A stretch of DNA of 5,042 nucleotides from Candidatus Bathyarchaeota archaeon. Its GTDB lineage: Archaea; Thermoproteota; Bathyarchaeia; 40CM-2-53-6. Of the stretch, positions 1-5,042 are shown piece after piece (positions within the stretch are counted from its first letter, which is position 1; each line of letters starts with the position of its first letter). A program made the translations under genes and the position numbers. Below the pieces are notes generated by a model. It ran no database searches, was not told where the DNA came from, and worked only from the letters and a program-made list of their open reading frames with translations. The DNA lies in assembly GCA_005883695.1 (NCBI GenBank), contig VBBV01000125.1:1-5042 (forward strand), given 5' to 3'.

Positions 1-908
1 TCTCTGGGAACCGTCTTCACAGCTTCCGGGTGTGGGTTCTCCCGGAACAGCTCGGGATGTATTATGTGGGCTAGGATCTCAAGCCCGTCTACGACCCTAG
101 GGCCTGACCTGCTGAAATACGCAGATGCATTGACCGCATAGATTCTGGAGGACTGGAACGCCGGGATCTTCTCCCATCCATGGTACGATGCCAACACATG
201 AGCTTCTTCCATGACCTGGTTTGCATTGAACCCGCATGGGGAGAGGACGATTATCTCTGGTTGGTACTCAACAACTTCGTCCCATCCTATTCTGTGGGAA
301 GGTTTGCCGAGACGGCCAAGCCCTTCGATTCCTCCAGCGTAATCGACCATCTGGGGAATCCAGTGTCCGCCAGCCCAAGGAGGTTGAAGCCATTCCATGA
401 AGAAGACCCGCGGCCTAAGTCCCACCACTCGCGTTTTCCCCTTCACTCTGCTTATTCTCTGCAGCATCTGCGAAGCTAGTTTCTCGGCCTCGGCCTGCGC
501 ACCCGTCATCCTACCAACCAGTAGAATGTTGTCGACGATTTCTTCCAGATTCGTTGGTTCCAACGAGACGATCTTGGTGTCTGCATCTAAGACCCGAGCT
601 GCTTCCTTGACCTTCGTATAGGAAACAGCACAAACATGGCAGAGTTCCTGGGTCAGAATAAGATCCGGCTTCAAGTGCTCGAGAAGCTTTTCGTCAATCT
701 CGTAAATGTCCCCTCCGCGCTGTTCAACTTCCCGGTCAACGTCAAGGCTCCTATGGATCTTCTGGTGAATCGCCGACTTCGTCAAAACTGGCCGACTGGA
801 AGCCGCGGGAGGATAATCGCACTCATGTGACACTGCGACAACTTGGTCTCCAAGCCCTATGGCGAATGCAATTTCTGTGGCGCTGGGAAGTAGCGAACAG
901 ATTCTCAT
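1..908 (-). CDS. Cobalamin-binding protein, BtuF-like substrate-binding fold (3' end outside window)
   Basis: I translated this minus-strand frame by hand. It is open from the ATG at 908 to the window edge, giving 302 residues and no stop. The start MRICSLLPSATEI is typical of COG0614/TroA-like cobalamin-binding proteins. Further hallmarks of this subfamily follow: SHECDYP (27-33), the TQELCHVCAVS motif with Cys90 and Cys93 (86-96), MEWLQPPWAGGHW (171-183), SPCGFN (223-228) and YFSRSGPRVVDGLEILA near the C-terminus (264-280). The usual family length is about 300, so only a few residues are probably missing. There is no signal peptide or lipobox: the first beta strand begins at residue 2, so the protein as read would be cytoplasmic, unlike classical BtuF. 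It is divergent from the ECF S-component gene and shares its 78-base intergenic region, which supports a corrinoid-related role. The family call is secure; ligand and transport role are inferred. Confidence 0.9.
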   Translation of the reverse strand, partial: MRICSLLPSATEIAFAIGLGDQVVAVSHECDYPPAASSRPVLTKSAIHQKIHRSLDVDREVEQRGGDIYEIDEKLLEHLKPDLILTQELCHVCAVSYTKVKEAARVLDADTKIVSLEPTNLEEIVDNILLVGRMTGAQAEAEKLASQMLQRISRVKGKTRVVGLRPRVFFMEWLQPPWAGGHWIPQMVDYAGGIEGLGRLGKPSHRIGWDEVVEYQPEIIVLSPCGFNANQVMEEAHVLASYHGWEKIPAFQSSRIYAVNASAYFSRSGPRVVDGLEILAHIIHPELFRENPHPEAVKTVPR

Positions 909-943: not shown

Positions 944-956
944 GGATATATTTATC
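944..956. promoter_or_regulatory. AT-rich TATA-like core, possibly shared by divergent genes
   Basis: The sequence GGATATATTTATC lies in the 78-base gap between the divergent genes and is the only AT-rich block there. Read on the minus strand (GATAAATATATCC) it sits about 40 bases upstream of the ATG at 908, predicting a transcript start near 924 with a leader of roughly 15 bases. Read on the plus strand it is preceded by GCGAAAG, a plausible BRE, and predicts a start near 975, about 10 bases before the ATG at 987. The near symmetry of the box makes it usable in either direction. Start positions are inferred from usual archaeal TATA-to-start spacing, not observed. Confidence 0.5.
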
Positions 957-958
957 GG

Positions 959-979
959 GCGGGTAACTTTGCCCGCTTC
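959..979 (+). repeat. 21-base inverted-repeat element, copy 1 (candidate operator)
   Basis: This element contains GCGGGTAACTTTGCCCGC followed by TTC and is identical over 21 bases to 4311-4331. Its core is an inverted repeat, GCGGG and CCCGC arms (959-963, 972-976) around an 8-base spacer. As RNA it could form a six-pair stem if a T-G wobble pair is counted. It lies between the TATA-like box and the ATG of the S-component gene, over the predicted transcript start, where a bound repressor would block archaeal RNA polymerase. It also lies upstream of the divergent cobalamin-binding-protein gene. I do not recognise it as a known operator or riboswitch. The TTG at 969 inside it is an in-frame alternative start. 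Confidence 0.7.
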
Positions 980-986
980 TTCGACT

Positions 987-1592
987 ATGACCAGTTCACA
1001 CACTAAGGCTTCGGTCCTCGACAGACGATCCACCAAAGTCATGATTACGGCCGTCTTCACGGCTCTCGCACTGGCAACCAACTATGCACTCATCGGCATC
1101 CCAAACGTCAAGATCATGGACACGTTGGTCTTCGTCGCCGCTTTCTTCTTCGGCCTTCGACTAGGAATTGGCGTCGCAGCGTCCATCTGGCTCGTTTACG
1201 GGTTTGTCAATCCAAATGGCGTGGACAGCTTCCTCATGTTATCATTCCTGATGGTAGGAGAGTGTTTCTACGCTCTCGCTGGTGTAGCTCTCAAGAGGAG
1301 TTTCGTGGCCAGGGACTTTGTAAAAGGGACGAAGGAGTACCAACGACTAAGCATCGTATTCGGACTCGTCGGGCTTCTAGCAACCTTTGCTTATGATGCG
1401 CTCACCAACTTTGGCAGCTGGATCTTTAGAACGGGTTCTCTCTACCAGGATTTTGTCTTCGGCAACATTATTGGTGTACCCTTTTCAGTCGCGCATGAGG
1501 CGAGCAACGTCGTTTTCTTCGCAACAATTGCCCCTGCGATAGTGGTTGCAGCCACACGCCTCGGCCTCAGAACTCCACAAGATGTGAGCTAG
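987..1592 (+). CDS. ECF transporter S component, probable corrinoid/vitamin uptake
   Basis: This 201-residue integral membrane protein has six hydrophobic segments, at about residues 17-38, 45-60, 61-75, 82-102, 122-147 and 160-190, as expected for the substrate-binding S subunit of an energy-coupling-factor transporter. Helix 1 carries an AxxxA motif (Ala22-VFT-Ala26), the signature contact with the EcfT subunit. The segment NYALIGIPNVKIMDTLVF (32-49) followed by WLVYGFVNPNG (68-78) resembles archaeal S components of unassigned vitamin specificity. I chose the ATG at 987; an in-frame TTG at 969 would add six residues (LPASST) and lies inside the repeat element. The next gene begins one base after the stop, so the two are co-transcribed. 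No EcfT or EcfA gene is visible, implying a shared module encoded elsewhere. A corrinoid substrate is inferred from the neighbours (BtuF-like and DUF4430 proteins); family membership is more certain than substrate. Confidence 0.8.
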   Translation: MTSSHTKASVLDRRSTKVMITAVFTALALATNYALIGIPNVKIMDTLVFVAAFFFGLRLGIGVAASIWLVYGFVNPNGVDSFLMLSFLMVGECFYALAGVALKRSFVARDFVKGTKEYQRLSIVFGLVGLLATFAYDALTNFGSWIFRTGSLYQDFVFGNIIGVPFSVAHEASNVVFFATIAPAIVVAATRLGLRTPQDVS

Positions 1593-1593
1593 A

Positions 1594-2118
1594 TTGGGAC
1601 TCAGCATTGTCAGCGAACACAAGGGGTTCTTCGCTATCCTATTTCTTGTCGGGGCAGGCATCGTTGCTTTCCAAGCAGGCGCCTACTATTACTATCAAAG
1701 ATCAAGTAGCACTTGCCCAAGTCCCTGCCGGGGATCAATGGTCTCTGTCGAGACCCTGATAAACTATGGAAACGGGACAAGCCAGTGGATCAACAAGACC
1801 GATGTACCTTCCGATTGGAATTTCTATCAACTGACCGCATCCATCGCAAGAGTCCAGGCGACGTATTACGGCCCTCCTACATCTGAACACTTGATCACCG
1901 GAATAAACGGAGTCCAGAGCAACCAGCAATACTTCTGGAGCCTATCGGCCATATGCGAGAAGTCCAACGCATGGATAGCCACAAACGTGGGTGCAGACGC
2001 GATTCACTTTACAACCTATCATACACTCGCCTGGTACTACCAGGCGACAAACTCTCAAGACTCGTCCGCCTGGAACCCACCTGTCCCTGGAGCCGCGACG
2101 GTAACTATGTGCGGTTGA
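1594..2118 (+). CDS. Membrane-anchored DUF4430-like extracellular protein
   Basis: The product has 174 residues. Residues 12-34 form one hydrophobic segment ending in a Tyr run, best read as an uncleaved signal anchor with the rest outside the cell. The exterior part has the DUF4430 pattern: a strand with VSVETLINYGNGT (50-62), W65, TDVPSDWNFYQLT (69-81), then ITGINGVQSNQQYFWSL (101-117), a NVGAD turn (131-135) and a final TTYHTLAWYYQ strand (140-150). DUF4430 is the fold of the C-terminal beta domain of intrinsic factor and transcobalamin, where it covers one face of bound cobalamin. Four cysteines (41, 45, 121, 173) lie outside the membrane segment and could pair. The start must be the TTG at 1594: an in-frame TGA lies at 1585-1587 and the first internal Met (residue 49) would remove the anchor. 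It follows the S-component gene by one base, suggesting it presents ligand to that subunit. The domain call comes from pattern reading without a profile search. Confidence 0.72.
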   Translation: MGLSIVSEHKGFFAILFLVGAGIVAFQAGAYYYYQRSSSTCPSPCRGSMVSVETLINYGNGTSQWINKTDVPSDWNFYQLTASIARVQATYYGPPTSEHLITGINGVQSNQQYFWSLSAICEKSNAWIATNVGADAIHFTTYHTLAWYYQATNSQDSSAWNPPVPGAATVTMCG

Positions 2119-2122
2119 GAAC

Positions 2123-3742
2123 TCAGGCCTTCCCGTCGGCTCTATCCTGTCGAATCTTATCCCTCGCTCTCTGGCTTGATGGGCCGTAGCCTCCGCCACC
2201 TGGTGTTGTCACAACTAGAACGTCCCCAGCGTTTGCGGAAAGAGTAGTTTTGGAAGACAGAGCCTTCATCTTGTTCCTTCGAGCAATGCCATACTCGCCG
2301 GGCGATCCCGATCTTCCTCCCTGCAATCCCCAGGGTCCACATCGCTGTCTTTCGCCCATCAACGAGATAGTAGATCTGTCAACTATCATCTCTGTGTCTC
2401 TTCTAATCCCCAATCCTCCTCGAAATCTTCCTTTTCCACCCGACCTTCGTACCAGTTCGTATCTTTTGACCCTAAGAGGGTAAGCTGATTCAAGCGCCTC
2501 GATAGGCGTGTTCAGCGTGTTCGTCATGTGGCTATGAATCCCGTCGACACCATCCTTGTTGTACCGTGCACCGAAACCGCCGGCGATGGTTTCGTAGTAG
2601 GTGAAATATTTCCCGGTCCGCGGGTCGACCCCTCCGATGGTTACATTGTTCATCGTTCCTTGGCAGGCGGCACATACTTTCTCTGGAACTATGCCTGCGA
2701 AGGCCTTGAGGGCCACGTCAACGATCCGCGTCGACGTCTCCACGTTTCCACCCGCCACGGGGGCTGGTGGCTCTGCGTTGACGATTGTCCCAGCCGGAGC
2801 TTTAACCTGAATAGGTTTGAAGCATCCCGCGTTTGTTGGAATCGAAGGGTCCGTCACACATCTCACTACGTAGTAGACAGCTGAGAGAGTGACGCTGTAA
2901 ACGGCGTTTAATGGTCCCTGAACCTGCTTCGCGGAGCCGGAGAAATCAAATGCTATGGATTGTCGACCAACTGTAACTTTGACCTTGATCGGGATGTCGG
3001 TTGTGTCAAACCCATCGTCATCGAGATAGTCAATCGCTGAGGACGACCTTCTTGGCAACTCACTAATTCTCTTGACCATCAACTCCTCAGAGTAGTCGAT
3101 CAATTGATTCATTCCGGACTCGATTGTGGATACACTGGATTTTTTCAATAGCTCAGTCAGACGTTTCGCGCCGACAAGGTTCGCTGCTCGTTGCGCTCTG
3201 AGATCTCCCAATCTCTCATCAGGCGTCCGGACATTGGACAGTACAAAGTCTAGGAGTTGCCGGTTCGGCTTGTTGTCAATCCAGAGTTTAACGGGTGGAA
3301 TCCGGATTCCTTCTTGGTTGATGTCCCTCGATAGAGCCGACATGCTCCCTGGCGCAACGCCTCCAACATCAGAGTGGTGAGCGCGATTAGCCGCAAACGC
3401 GACCAATCTCTCCTTGAAGAAGATCGGTGAGACCATAGTAATGTCGGGAAGATGTGTCCCGCCGCGGTATGGATCGTTGAGGATGATGTGATCACCTTCC
3501 GAAAAATCATCTTTGAACTCTTTCAGAACGGCCTGCACCGAATAGGGCATCGCGCCGAGATGGACAGGTATGTGCTCTGCTTGGGCTACTAGCTGTCCTG
3601 GCGCATCAAAGAGGGCGCAGGAGAAATCTCTCCTCTCCTTGATGTTCGGAGAGAAGCTCGATCTACGAAGTACAACTCCCATCTCCTCTGCAATAGAGAC
3701 GAGCGAGTTCTTTAGAATCTCAAACGAAATGGGGTCAAGCAA
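2123..3742 (-). CDS. hyuB: Hydantoinase B/oxoprolinase family protein (HyuB)
   Basis: The 539-residue product matches the full length of the hydantoinase B family (PF02538), which includes N-methylhydantoinase B, the 5-oxoprolinase C-terminal half and acetone/acetophenone carboxylase subunits. Visible family blocks in order are NIKERRDFSCALFD (33-46), AEHIPVHLGAMP (55-66), NDPYRGGTHLPDI (89-101), NRAHHSDVGG (119-128), VRTPDERLGDLRAQ (171-184), GPLNAVYSV (277-285), GGNVETSTR (331-339), GGFGAR (388-393), HSHMTNTLNTPIEALE (403-418), GGKGRFRGGLG (435-445) and TPGGGGYG (513-520). These enzymes normally work with a HyuA ATPase partner, usually encoded next door; none is in this window, so the substrate cannot be named. 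The start used is TTG at 3742, 18 bases after the HIT stop and in its frame; an in-frame TAA just upstream rules out earlier starts. The end lies four bases from the convergent DUF4430-like gene. The protein is cytosolic. Confidence 0.92.
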   Translation of the reverse strand: MLDPISFEILKNSLVSIAEEMGVVLRRSSFSPNIKERRDFSCALFDAPGQLVAQAEHIPVHLGAMPYSVQAVLKEFKDDFSEGDHIILNDPYRGGTHLPDITMVSPIFFKERLVAFAANRAHHSDVGGVAPGSMSALSRDINQEGIRIPPVKLWIDNKPNRQLLDFVLSNVRTPDERLGDLRAQRAANLVGAKRLTELLKKSSVSTIESGMNQLIDYSEELMVKRISELPRRSSSAIDYLDDDGFDTTDIPIKVKVTVGRQSIAFDFSGSAKQVQGPLNAVYSVTLSAVYYVVRCVTDPSIPTNAGCFKPIQVKAPAGTIVNAEPPAPVAGGNVETSTRIVDVALKAFAGIVPEKVCAACQGTMNNVTIGGVDPRTGKYFTYYETIAGGFGARYNKDGVDGIHSHMTNTLNTPIEALESAYPLRVKRYELVRRSGGKGRFRGGLGIRRDTEMIVDRSTISLMGERQRCGPWGLQGGRSGSPGEYGIARRNKMKALSSKTTLSANAGDVLVVTTPGGGGYGPSSQRARDKIRQDRADGKA

Positions 3743-3761
3743 TTTCGATCTTTCTCGACAT
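3735..3761 (-). other. Eight-codon frame opened by a TAATG overlap before hyuB
   Basis: The HIT stop codon TAA (3761-3763) overlaps an ATG (3759-3761) in the classic TAATG arrangement of translationally coupled genes. That ATG reads MSRKIEIA and then TGA (3735-3737), overlapping the first codons of hyuB one frame away. Removing one T from the run GCTTGACC would fuse it to hyuB as MSRKIEIA-DPISFE, an ordinary-looking N-terminus for the family. It may therefore be a coupling minicistron, a real or sequencing frameshift at the true hyuB start, or chance. I do not count it as a separate gene. Confidence 0.4.
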
Positions 3762-4213
3762 TAGACCTTCGCGCCATGTTCCTTGGGTTTCCATAGCCGT
3801 TGGTATGCCTGGCGTATTTTGTCTGCTGTTTTGTCAAGTTCCTGTCGCGAGGGTCTGGAGCCATGGTCGGCCGGTATCCGGAAATTGTCTCCGTGGAATC
3901 TCGGAATTACGTGCATATGGAGGTGAAGAATCTTTTGTTGCGGTTCTCCATCTGCCAGGAAAAGGTTGATTCCTTCACATCTCAACCCCGAATTGCGGAG
4001 GGCATCTGCTACACGCATGGTGATCTTGAAAAGATACGAGCCCATTTTTTCCTCCATACTCGATAGAGCTGGAAAGTGTTTCTTCGTAATAACTAGAACA
4101 TGACCCGGGTTTGCTGGGGCTATCGTCATCAACGCCATGATTGTCTTGTCCTCATACACCACACTAGCGGGTGCTTTACCTGCTGCTATTTTGCAGAATA
4201 TGCAGTTCTTCAT
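3761..4213 (-). CDS. HIT family nucleotide hydrolase/transferase
   Basis: The 150-residue product is a complete histidine-triad protein of the Hint/Fhit-like group, which hydrolyses or transfers nucleotidyl groups of small nucleotides in the cytoplasm. The catalytic triad is HLHMHVIPR (97-105), with His99 the expected nucleophile. The N-terminal CIFC (Cys4, Cys7) with His46 and His97 forms the zinc site usual in this branch. Also visible are IAPANPGHVLVITKKH (31-46) and GINLFLADGE (81-90). Before the triad the sequence is GEPQQK where many relatives have a GxAAGQ-like loop, a modest variation. The ATG at 4213 gives the standard start MKNCIFCKIAAGKAPASVVYED; a TTG 69 bases upstream would add an atypical Pro/Arg-rich extension and precede the likely promoter. 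Its stop overlaps an ATG and hyuB follows in the same frame, so the two form an operon. The substrate is unknown. Confidence 0.95.
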   Translation of the reverse strand: MKNCIFCKIAAGKAPASVVYEDKTIMALMTIAPANPGHVLVITKKHFPALSSMEEKMGSYLFKITMRVADALRNSGLRCEGINLFLADGEPQQKILHLHMHVIPRFHGDNFRIPADHGSRPSRQELDKTADKIRQAYQRLWKPKEHGAKV

Positions 4214-4240
4214 TGCAGTCCATCCAAAGGTCCGGAGATT

Positions 4241-4247
4241 GGATAAA
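4241..4247 (-). promoter_or_regulatory. Candidate TATA box of the HIT-hyuB operon
   Basis: On the minus strand the sequence GTTTATCC is the most TATA-like block near the HIT ATG at 4213. Its centre is about 31 bases upstream of the start codon, which by usual archaeal spacing puts transcription a few bases before the ATG, giving a nearly leaderless message. This agrees with the absence of a Shine-Dalgarno site. No clear A-rich BRE precedes it, so the call is tentative. Confidence 0.42.
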
Positions 4248-4287
4248 CGGGATTCCTGTCTTGGGGATAATCTTGGCGGCAATCGAG

Positions 4288-4295
4288 CTTATATG
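4288..4295 (+). promoter_or_regulatory. Candidate TATA box of the toroid-protein gene
   Basis: The sequence CTTATATG fits the archaeal TATA consensus well. Its centre is about 29 bases upstream of the TTG at 4321, predicting a transcript start around 4317-4320 and an almost leaderless message. That argues against the in-frame GTG at 4306, which would lie before the predicted transcript start. The repeat element at 4311 overlaps the predicted start. Confidence 0.5.
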
Positions 4296-4310: not shown

Positions 4311-4331
4311 GCGGGTAACTTTGCCCGCTTC
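4311..4331 (+). repeat. 21-base inverted-repeat element, copy 2 (candidate operator)
   Basis: This is the second, fully identical copy of the element at 959-979, with arms GCGGG (4311-4315) and CCCGC (4324-4328). Flanks diverge at once on both sides (A instead of G before it, A instead of T after it). It begins 23 bases after the start of the TATA-like box, against 13 bases for copy 1 measured from the ATATATTT at 946; the difference is about one helical turn. It overlaps the start of the coding frame, with the TTG at 4321 at the same place in the element as the TTG at 969 in copy 1. Confidence 0.7.
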
Positions 4332-5042
4332 AGTAGGTGCCTCTAGGACCGCTCTAATTCTCATTCTTGTTGGTGGAACCATCTTGCCAGTCGCCGGTTA
4401 CGGAGCCAACAGCTATGGGCCATCTCAGTCGTCCGCTGTCAAATCCTCCCTAGCTTGGTTGGGTAGTAACGAGAAGTCTGACGGGTCCTTCGGGAGCTCC
4501 CAAATATCCACACCTCCAGCTGCCTACGCTCTTTGGTTGAACGACTCCCGTTCGGCTAAAGCATCGACATCGTTCTCGTGGTTAGCGTCGCAGCTCGATA
4601 ATTCTTCCAGTTATGCGTGGGGAGAGGCGGACATCCCAGGGCAGATCCTTTACACCCTGAGCACGAGCGGAAACGTCAGGCTCCTGAGCAACTCATCAGA
4701 CTCTTCCGGACTCTTAGCATATCAGCAAACTAATGGAGGGTTCTTGGGCTGGTATGACTCGTCCAGTGGACTGCAGACAACAAGCAGCATTGACACAGCC
4801 ATGGCACTCTGGGGCCTAATTGAAGCACATGCGATCAGCTCTTCAAAGCAACAACAGGCGGTCAACTACATTCTTTCACTTCAAAATCATGACGGAAGTT
4901 TTAATCTCACGAGGACAGAAGCCACGAACCACTTCGAAACCCTCGGACCCGAATCGATCAGTACAACTGCCTTAGTCGTTCTAGCTTTGAAGAGTGCCTC
5001 TTTTAGGATGAGCGACACACGTGTTTCGAACGCGCTGGACTT
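4321..5042 (+). CDS. Secreted alpha/alpha-toroid (prenyltransferase/squalene-oxidase-like repeat) protein, 3' end outside window
   Basis: I translated this open frame by hand; 240 residues are visible with no stop. Residues 10-28 (TALILILVGGTILPVAGYG) form a hydrophobic export signal, and the rest is Ser-rich as in extracellular proteins. Repeats of the alpha/alpha-toroid type follow: LAWLGSNEKSDGSFG (44-58), LLAYQQTNGGFLGWYD (131-146), IDTAMALWGLIEA (157-169), NYILSLQNHDGSFN (182-195) and STTALVVLALKSA (214-226). This is the fold of squalene cyclases, protein prenyltransferases and the alpha domain of intrinsic factor. No DxDD or other cyclase catalytic motif is seen in the visible part, and export argues for a binding rather than catalytic role. 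With a DUF4430-like protein and an S component nearby and a shared promoter element, an extracellular corrinoid binder is the favoured inference. The start is TTG at 4321, fixed by the TATA-like box; GTG at 4306 is the alternative. A C-terminal DUF4430 domain may lie beyond the edge. Confidence 0.75.
   Translation, partial: MPASVGASRTALILILVGGTILPVAGYGANSYGPSQSSAVKSSLAWLGSNEKSDGSFGSSQISTPPAAYALWLNDSRSAKASTSFSWLASQLDNSSSYAWGEADIPGQILYTLSTSGNVRLLSNSSDSSGLLAYQQTNGGFLGWYDSSSGLQTTSSIDTAMALWGLIEAHAISSSKQQQAVNYILSLQNHDGSFNLTRTEATNHFETLGPESISTTALVVLALKSASFRMSDTRVSNALD

Follow-up and report, generated by a model that had tools for sequence, protein, structure and literature searches.

The palindrome and its two promoters

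The window, meaning the whole stretch of 5,042 nucleotides analysed here (contig VBBV01000125.1, assembly GCA_005883695.1, Candidatus Bathyarchaeota archaeon), carries an 18-base palindrome at two plus-strand genes, one for an S component of the energy-coupling factor (ECF) type and one for a secreted alpha/alpha-toroid protein. Comparison of this locus with its relatives indicated that the repeated palindrome is very probably a protein-binding switch for the uptake genes of a vitamin B12-type cofactor in soil Bathyarchaeia. The two copies and the TATA-like boxes that precede them are as follows.

959..976, plus strand: putative operator copy 1, 18-bp dyad GCGGGTAACTTTGCCCGC, in the promoter of the S-component gene
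4311..4328, plus strand: putative operator copy 2, 18-bp dyad GCGGGTAACTTTGCCCGC, in the promoter/start region of the toroid gene
947..954, plus strand: TATA-like box TATATTTA of the S gene, read from the sequence (ATATATTTAACG in most orthologues)
4289..4294, plus strand: TATA-like box TTATAT of the toroid gene, read from the sequence and present in most orthologues

The initial annotation reported an identical 21-base repeat, and this was found as described: GCGGGTAACTTTGCCCGC plus TTC occurs exactly, on the plus strand, at 959-979 and 4311-4331, within flanks unlike each other and with a TATA-like box ahead of each, at a distance of 4 nt for copy 1 and 16 nt for copy 2. The dyad symmetry proved stronger than that annotation had described. 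The element reads GCGGGTAA-CT-TTGCCCGC, and its half-sites GCGGGTAA and GCGGGCAA match at 7 of 8 pairs around the central CT. No third copy of the 18-mer was present in the window at up to 3 mismatches; shuffled windows gave a mean of 0.01 matches at this threshold, and none of 200 shuffles reached two.

Archaeal transcription usually starts about 26 nt downstream of the centre of the TATA box. This spacing predicts transcription starts close to 977 and 4318. At the S gene the operator would therefore fall between TATA box and start, and at the toroid gene it would cover the start. A dimer bound there should repress.

The genes of the window are listed below.

987..1592, plus strand: ECF-type S component of 201 aa, read from ATG 987 (PF12822 E = 6e-4, below the curated cut-off; supported by homologues)
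1594..2118, plus strand: p3, a membrane-anchored extracellular protein, DUF4430-like (transcobalamin C-domain type), assigned from PF14478 matches of its relatives
4321..5042, plus strand, running off the window: secreted alpha/alpha-toroid protein (TED, SQHop and Prenyltrans matches), with a probable TTG start inside copy 2
3..908, minus strand: BtuF-like binding protein, divergent from the S gene (PF01497 E = 4e-21; below the cut-off of the BtuF model)
2123..3742, minus strand: hydantoinase B / oxoprolinase (PF02538), an unrelated insert between the operators
3761..4282, minus strand: HIT-domain protein (PF01230), also an unrelated insert

The S component, p3 and the toroid protein form the module common to the loci. 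Many relatives of the S component likewise have 201 aa. The window copy of p3 gave no Pfam match; its orthologue in locus L013 matched PF14478 below the cut-off (E = 9e-4) and its counterpart in L171 above it (E = 3.6e-6). The toroid protein of the window and its orthologues resemble TED/squalene-cyclase toroids, and a toroid joined to DUF4430 is, we presume, the architecture of vitamin B12-binding transcobalamin proteins. The hydantoinase B and HIT genes look like passengers because L014, L016 and L018 are without them at that place. The BtuF-like protein showed no signal peptide on reading of its sequence, and its gene was not beside the element in L013-L016 and L018; the TATA-like box at 947..954 may nevertheless serve this divergent gene too.

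Both copies had been placed at the 5′ end of a gene, a placement to be refined: it probably holds for the toroid gene and probably not for the S gene. The S gene probably starts downstream of the element, at ATG 987, because the frame of the TTG inside the element meets a stop at once in orthologue L008. In L007 this TTG is out of frame with the S gene. Judged from these orthologues, the TTG inside the element cannot be a general S-gene start. TTG 4321, also inside the element, is the probable toroid start. Seven of the 13 toroid copies checked had no in-frame start upstream of it, and three of those seven (L009, L010 and L013) had no other start within 90 nt downstream either. The remaining six, the window included, have upstream in-frame alternatives, the nearest in the window being a GTG 15 nt before the TTG. 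L005, which has a run of N, and L009, cut by the contig end, were left out of the toroid rows compared next.

These frames also bear on the idea that the element is conserved as coding DNA for a protein start, MPA, common to both genes. The toroid frame does cross the element as ...TTG CCC GC, which gives M-P-A if TTG is the start, although the compared rows were trimmed there and so show MPA by construction. Against this, the same DNA is non-coding in the S gene, as the L008 stop and the L007 frame indicate, and all codon third positions in the element are fixed, unlike those of adjacent coding DNA. We regard a coding origin of the conservation as hardly credible.

Conservation and locus specificity in soil Bathyarchaeia

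Relatives of the S component about 90% identical to it were found in soil Bathyarchaeia assemblies, and copy number was counted in these relatives' genomes rather than in the window's own. The element stood directly before the S gene in 13 of 16 loci with an S relative. In L018 it precedes the toroid gene, the S gene being cut there by the contig end, and L017 (Nitrososphaerales, cut at a contig end) had no element. In L013 the genes run toroid-S-p3 as one unit (4533-7180) with a single copy ahead of the whole, a natural rearrangement. Orientation relative to the gene was constant in all copies found.

Among 36 distinct copies, identity to the majority base was 98.8% at the S site (n = 19) and 100% at the toroid site (n = 17), against 49-60% in the 40-base flanks. 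The pattern used for this count let two bases vary only, and the count left aside any copy whose flanks were incomplete or whose 138-base context duplicated another. Looser scans, allowing up to 4 mismatches across the loci and up to 3 across 15 genomes, turned up nothing more degenerate at these genes. The S protein behind the element diverges down to 46% identity while the element stays nearly invariant. Two variants were seen: the S-site copy of L014, L016 and L050 begins with C in place of G, so that the outer pair is lost, and in L015 (genome G012; GCGGGC...) base 6 is C instead of T, which completes the dyad to 8 of 8 pairs. An absence of conservation upstream of orthologues, the outcome that the initial annotation had said would speak against a regulatory site, was thus not observed.

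Nor is the element a dispersed repeat. At up to 1 mismatch it was carried by 19 of 256 genomes of the class, in one or two copies, and all 19 had the S component. Every copy shared a contig with the S gene, apart from G001:C104, which is flanked by sequence matching the toroid site. Of 15 genomes scanned more loosely, 14 held one or two copies with at most one mismatch, all at the S/p3/toroid locus; at 2-3 mismatches these 15 genomes held 11 further matches, compared with 22 for the reversed pattern. The corrinoid regulon suggested earlier is, as found in this clade, one locus and not a genome-wide set. A dyad of about 16-20 bp, a core-promoter position at orthologues and conservation far above that of the flanks are what a transcription-factor operator should display, and all three were found.

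Identical direct repeats with a conserved centre that bound a 3.35-kb segment could also be a recombination or mobile-element site. Such a site would not readily account for the absence of copies elsewhere in the class genomes when 1 mismatch is allowed, for the single copy and different gene order of L013, for a distance between copies that varies from 1.2 to 3.35 kb across loci with differing inserts, or for the strict promoter position. We consider this explanation very improbable.

An RNA element in the 5′ leader, either a GCGGG/CCCGC hairpin or part of a riboswitch, would fit the inverted repeat, its fixed orientation and its position beside start codons. In bacteria, a cobalamin riboswitch controls genes of B12 uptake and synthesis. 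Here the window had no Rfam match at E up to 1, and what it carries is a short DNA palindrome. From the predicted starts, copy 1 would be untranscribed and copy 2 transcribed only in part. The unequal TATA spacing of the two sites, the outer pair broken by the C variants and the presence of other palindromes at the same place in relatives (below) likewise argue against RNA, and we judge this explanation improbable.

Three side observations concern the distribution of the sequence. L006 (QHOM01000314.1), filed under the Verrucomicrobia genome AV52, has a Bathyarchaeal S gene (89% identity) and an exact element, and is probably a misbinned archaeal contig. The exact 18-mer also occurs in two viral contigs, L001:1186-1203 and L002:7766-7783, within the same otherwise unrelated sequence, which we took as chance. 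A separate contig of G010 holds a two-mismatch relative, GCGGGTAACGTTGCCCTC, at L045:414-431.

Replacement palindromes in other Bathyarchaeia

In non-soil S genes, different palindromes occupy the corresponding position immediately 3′ of the TATA box. In the 66 of 91 non-soil S-gene genomes examined for them, TGGATGGATNATCCATCCA was present upstream of the S gene at up to 4 mismatches in 59 and GTAGGA-N6-TCCTAC at up to 2 mismatches in 6; one shuffle per upstream region gave 0 of 66 for each. The one genome with neither, G122, has 5 mismatches to TGGATGGATNATCCATCCA. The soil-type GCGGGY-N6-RCCCGC was also tried on these upstream regions and matched 3 of 66 at up to 2 mismatches, compared with 1 of 66 after shuffling, which we took as chance.

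TGGATGGATNATCCATCCA was also counted genome-wide. At up to 2 mismatches it occurred in 159 of 256 class genomes (6 for the reversed control), none of them among the 19 that carry the soil element, and a draw of 151 genomes from the phylum contained it in 62 (7 for the reversed control). GTAGGA-N6-TCCTAC at up to 1 mismatch was unspecific genome-wide, with 18 forward and 26 reversed matches in 9 genomes, and is therefore claimed at S genes only; its four exact places in those 9 genomes were all at S genes. In G215, two palindromes of this type stand in tandem, 28 bp apart, before the S gene (L247:676-721).

Genes behind TGGATGGATNATCCATCCA were read from the matches listed among 40 stretches, with L163-L169 covered in part. 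The site precedes CobD in L162 (304 bits; NCBIfam cut-off 290), CbiB in L174 and HemA in L148 (both above the NCBIfam cut-off), and a CobZ-like gene in L164 that fell below it (133; cut-off 152). By reading only, sites also precede BtuF, BtuC, chelatase, CobN-like and S-component genes. The extra copies in G173 stand ahead of a BtuF-like gene, arranged divergently to a gene reading like CobZ, and ahead of an S component with an AIR-synthase-like protein after it. Some sites precede genes not tied to cobamides (e.g., L150, L157, L170 and L177). Taken as a whole, the TGGATGGATNATCCATCCA sites define, by the genes they precede, a cobamide regulon. Sites before cobalamin genes, the support that the initial annotation had hoped for, were found for the replacement operator in relatives; for the soil element they came down to the S/DUF4430-like/toroid locus.

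A predicted site before cobalamin genes recalls the CBL-box, reportedly proposed by Rodionov and colleagues in 2003 as a predicted binding signal, in some archaea, for a B12 regulator that was itself hypothetical. TGGATGGATNATCCATCCA may be the CBL-box or close to it. The soil GCGGGTAACTTTGCCCGC differs from the relatives' motif TGGATGGATNATCCATCCA, and, unlike for the CBL-box, a regulator is proposed here.

At L097:1551-2858 and L163:2308-3557, a TGGATGG operator stands ahead of a small S-component gene with an AIR-synthase-like gene after it. This pair recalls what we take to be the CblT-CblS arrangement of alpha-ribazole salvage.

A candidate regulator and the proposed switch

On present sequence comparisons, the best candidate for the protein that reads these sites is a winged-helix protein with a DUF4443 domain (PF14544). 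DUF4443 was found in 197 of 256 class genomes, mostly in single copy, and in 15 of the 19 genomes with the soil element. Both genes were placed in 72 non-soil genomes, and among the matches listed DUF4443 lay within 3 kb of the S gene in 26 of these. Its presence also went with that of TGGATGGATNATCCATCCA. In the class, 140 genomes had both, 57 DUF4443 only, 19 the motif only and 40 neither (p = 1e-7, ancestry ignored); in the phylum draw outside the class, the corresponding counts were 44, 56, 1 and 27 (p = 3e-5, again ignoring ancestry).

The winged helix of DUF4443 is of the type found in CggR, a winged-helix subfamily of SorC repressors (Bacillus subtilis). In CggR, R38, R37 and R52 contact three consecutive G (PMC11229326), the pairing of Arg to G being read from the order of its text; the CggR operator contains GCGGGACATATAATGTCC, and DNA bending is described at the AT-rich centre of the half-operator. 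The position equivalent to R38 held Arg in all 13 readable soil DUF4443 proteins and Tyr in all 8 class II rows that could be read (7 of them distinct); the 46 other DUF4443 rows (43 distinct) never had Arg there. As far as read, the extra Arg was thus confined to the clade with GGG in its operator, and the DNA-reading residues of DUF4443 appear to change along with the operator. The likeness has limits. The soil protein, encoded for example at L216:1588-2214, has 208 aa with a DUF4443 C-domain and is without the sugar-phosphate effector domain that CggR and SorC proteins carry at the C-terminus (about 250 residues; PMC11229326), and is therefore not a SorC member. The R49 position is Gly in all readable DUF4443 rows. 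The palindrome of CggR spans, by our own estimate, about 3 bp more, and it is doubled; the CggR signal is fructose-1,6-bisphosphate (PMC11229326). PH0730 of Pyrococcus horikoshii (PDB 2p8t), a hypothetical protein by its PDB title, is also among the closest systems.

We therefore favour, as the probable explanation, that the palindrome is the operator of a dimeric winged-helix regulator, with DUF4443 as best candidate, that switches a cobamide capture-and-uptake unit. That the element serves a dimeric regulator as the operator of a corrinoid-uptake unit had been suspected from the window, and the suspicion is strengthened by a site that is conserved at orthologues, confined to the locus and replaced in relatives by other palindromes, one of which heads genes of both cobamide synthesis and transport. 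The toroid and DUF4430-like protein would form a surface cobamide binder and the ECF S component would act as carrier in the uptake unit. Because of the regulon content, cobamide is the presumed signal: the dimer, bound to the element, would repress when cobamide is plentiful, the likely mode being a block of polymerase assembly or start. In the soil clade, three arginines of DUF4443 would touch the GCGGG half-sites in the way that those of CggR touch its operator. Control of the divergent BtuF-like gene through the common TATA region is possible.

Several findings weigh against this interpretation. Among the matches listed, DUF4443 was near the S gene in 0 of 15 soil genomes, and in five loci laid out the soil gene stood beside a CinA-like gene and not beside the operon. 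It was not found in four of the 19 element genomes (G002, G007, G011 and G015), from whose bins it is perhaps missing, and G016 has DUF4443 with neither S gene nor element. DUF4443 occurs without the motif in 57 of 197 genomes in the class and 60 of 120 in the phylum draw. Co-variation of operator and residues rests on two clade-level changes, and the p values of the co-occurrence ignore ancestry. A second winged helix-turn-helix family, DUF7839, stands behind operators in some relatives. Finally, both copies retain the centre AACTTT and a constant orientation beyond the needs of a simple dimer, and base 6 is unequal in all copies but L015; DNA bending, as at the CggR half-operator centre, or overlap with the start region could explain all three.

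The cobamide operator might instead be read by another regulator, unlinked in the soil clade, with the divergence of DUF4443 reflecting clade history. The missing linkage of soil DUF4443 to the operon, the number of operator changes available for correlation, which is two, and the DUF7839-type proteins behind some operators all favour such a reader. DUF7839 itself, however, was found in 0 of 21 soil-set genomes, and DUF4443 is linked to the S gene elsewhere, co-occurs with the motif in two genome sets and has the R38-type Arg where the operator has the extra G. We hold a different reader to be unlikely, though a much more serious contender than the RNA, recombination or coding explanations.

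A wider proposal, on which we are evenly divided, is that DUF4443 winged-helix proteins are the missing cobamide regulators across much of the phylum that holds the Bathyarchaeia. The soil clade would then have been rewired: an Arg gained at the CggR R38 position and a changed recognition helix would have moved the operator from a GG type (TGGATGG, GTAGGA) to a GGG type (GCGGGY) while the regulon shrank to one uptake locus. Titles and abstract openings in the part of the literature covered on archaeal cobalamin operators and regulators described neither the soil operator nor the replacement pattern nor a role for DUF4443, and no literature on DUF4443 or the CBL-box was found within that part. 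Cobamides are traded between microbes and most of these archaea are uncultured; an operator with a named candidate regulator would bring their sensing of B12 within reach of work on one small protein and a short piece of DNA. The three types of operator and the changes that match them in the DNA-reading helix would offer a natural test of co-evolution between regulator and site.

Two winged-helix genes, one PF14544 (DUF4443) and one PF25211 (DUF7839), were found behind operators in G050 and G051. At L146:1857-3641, a DUF7839 and then a DUF4443 winged-helix gene follow in tandem behind two TGGATGG operators, an arrangement in which autoregulation by a regulator pair is possible.
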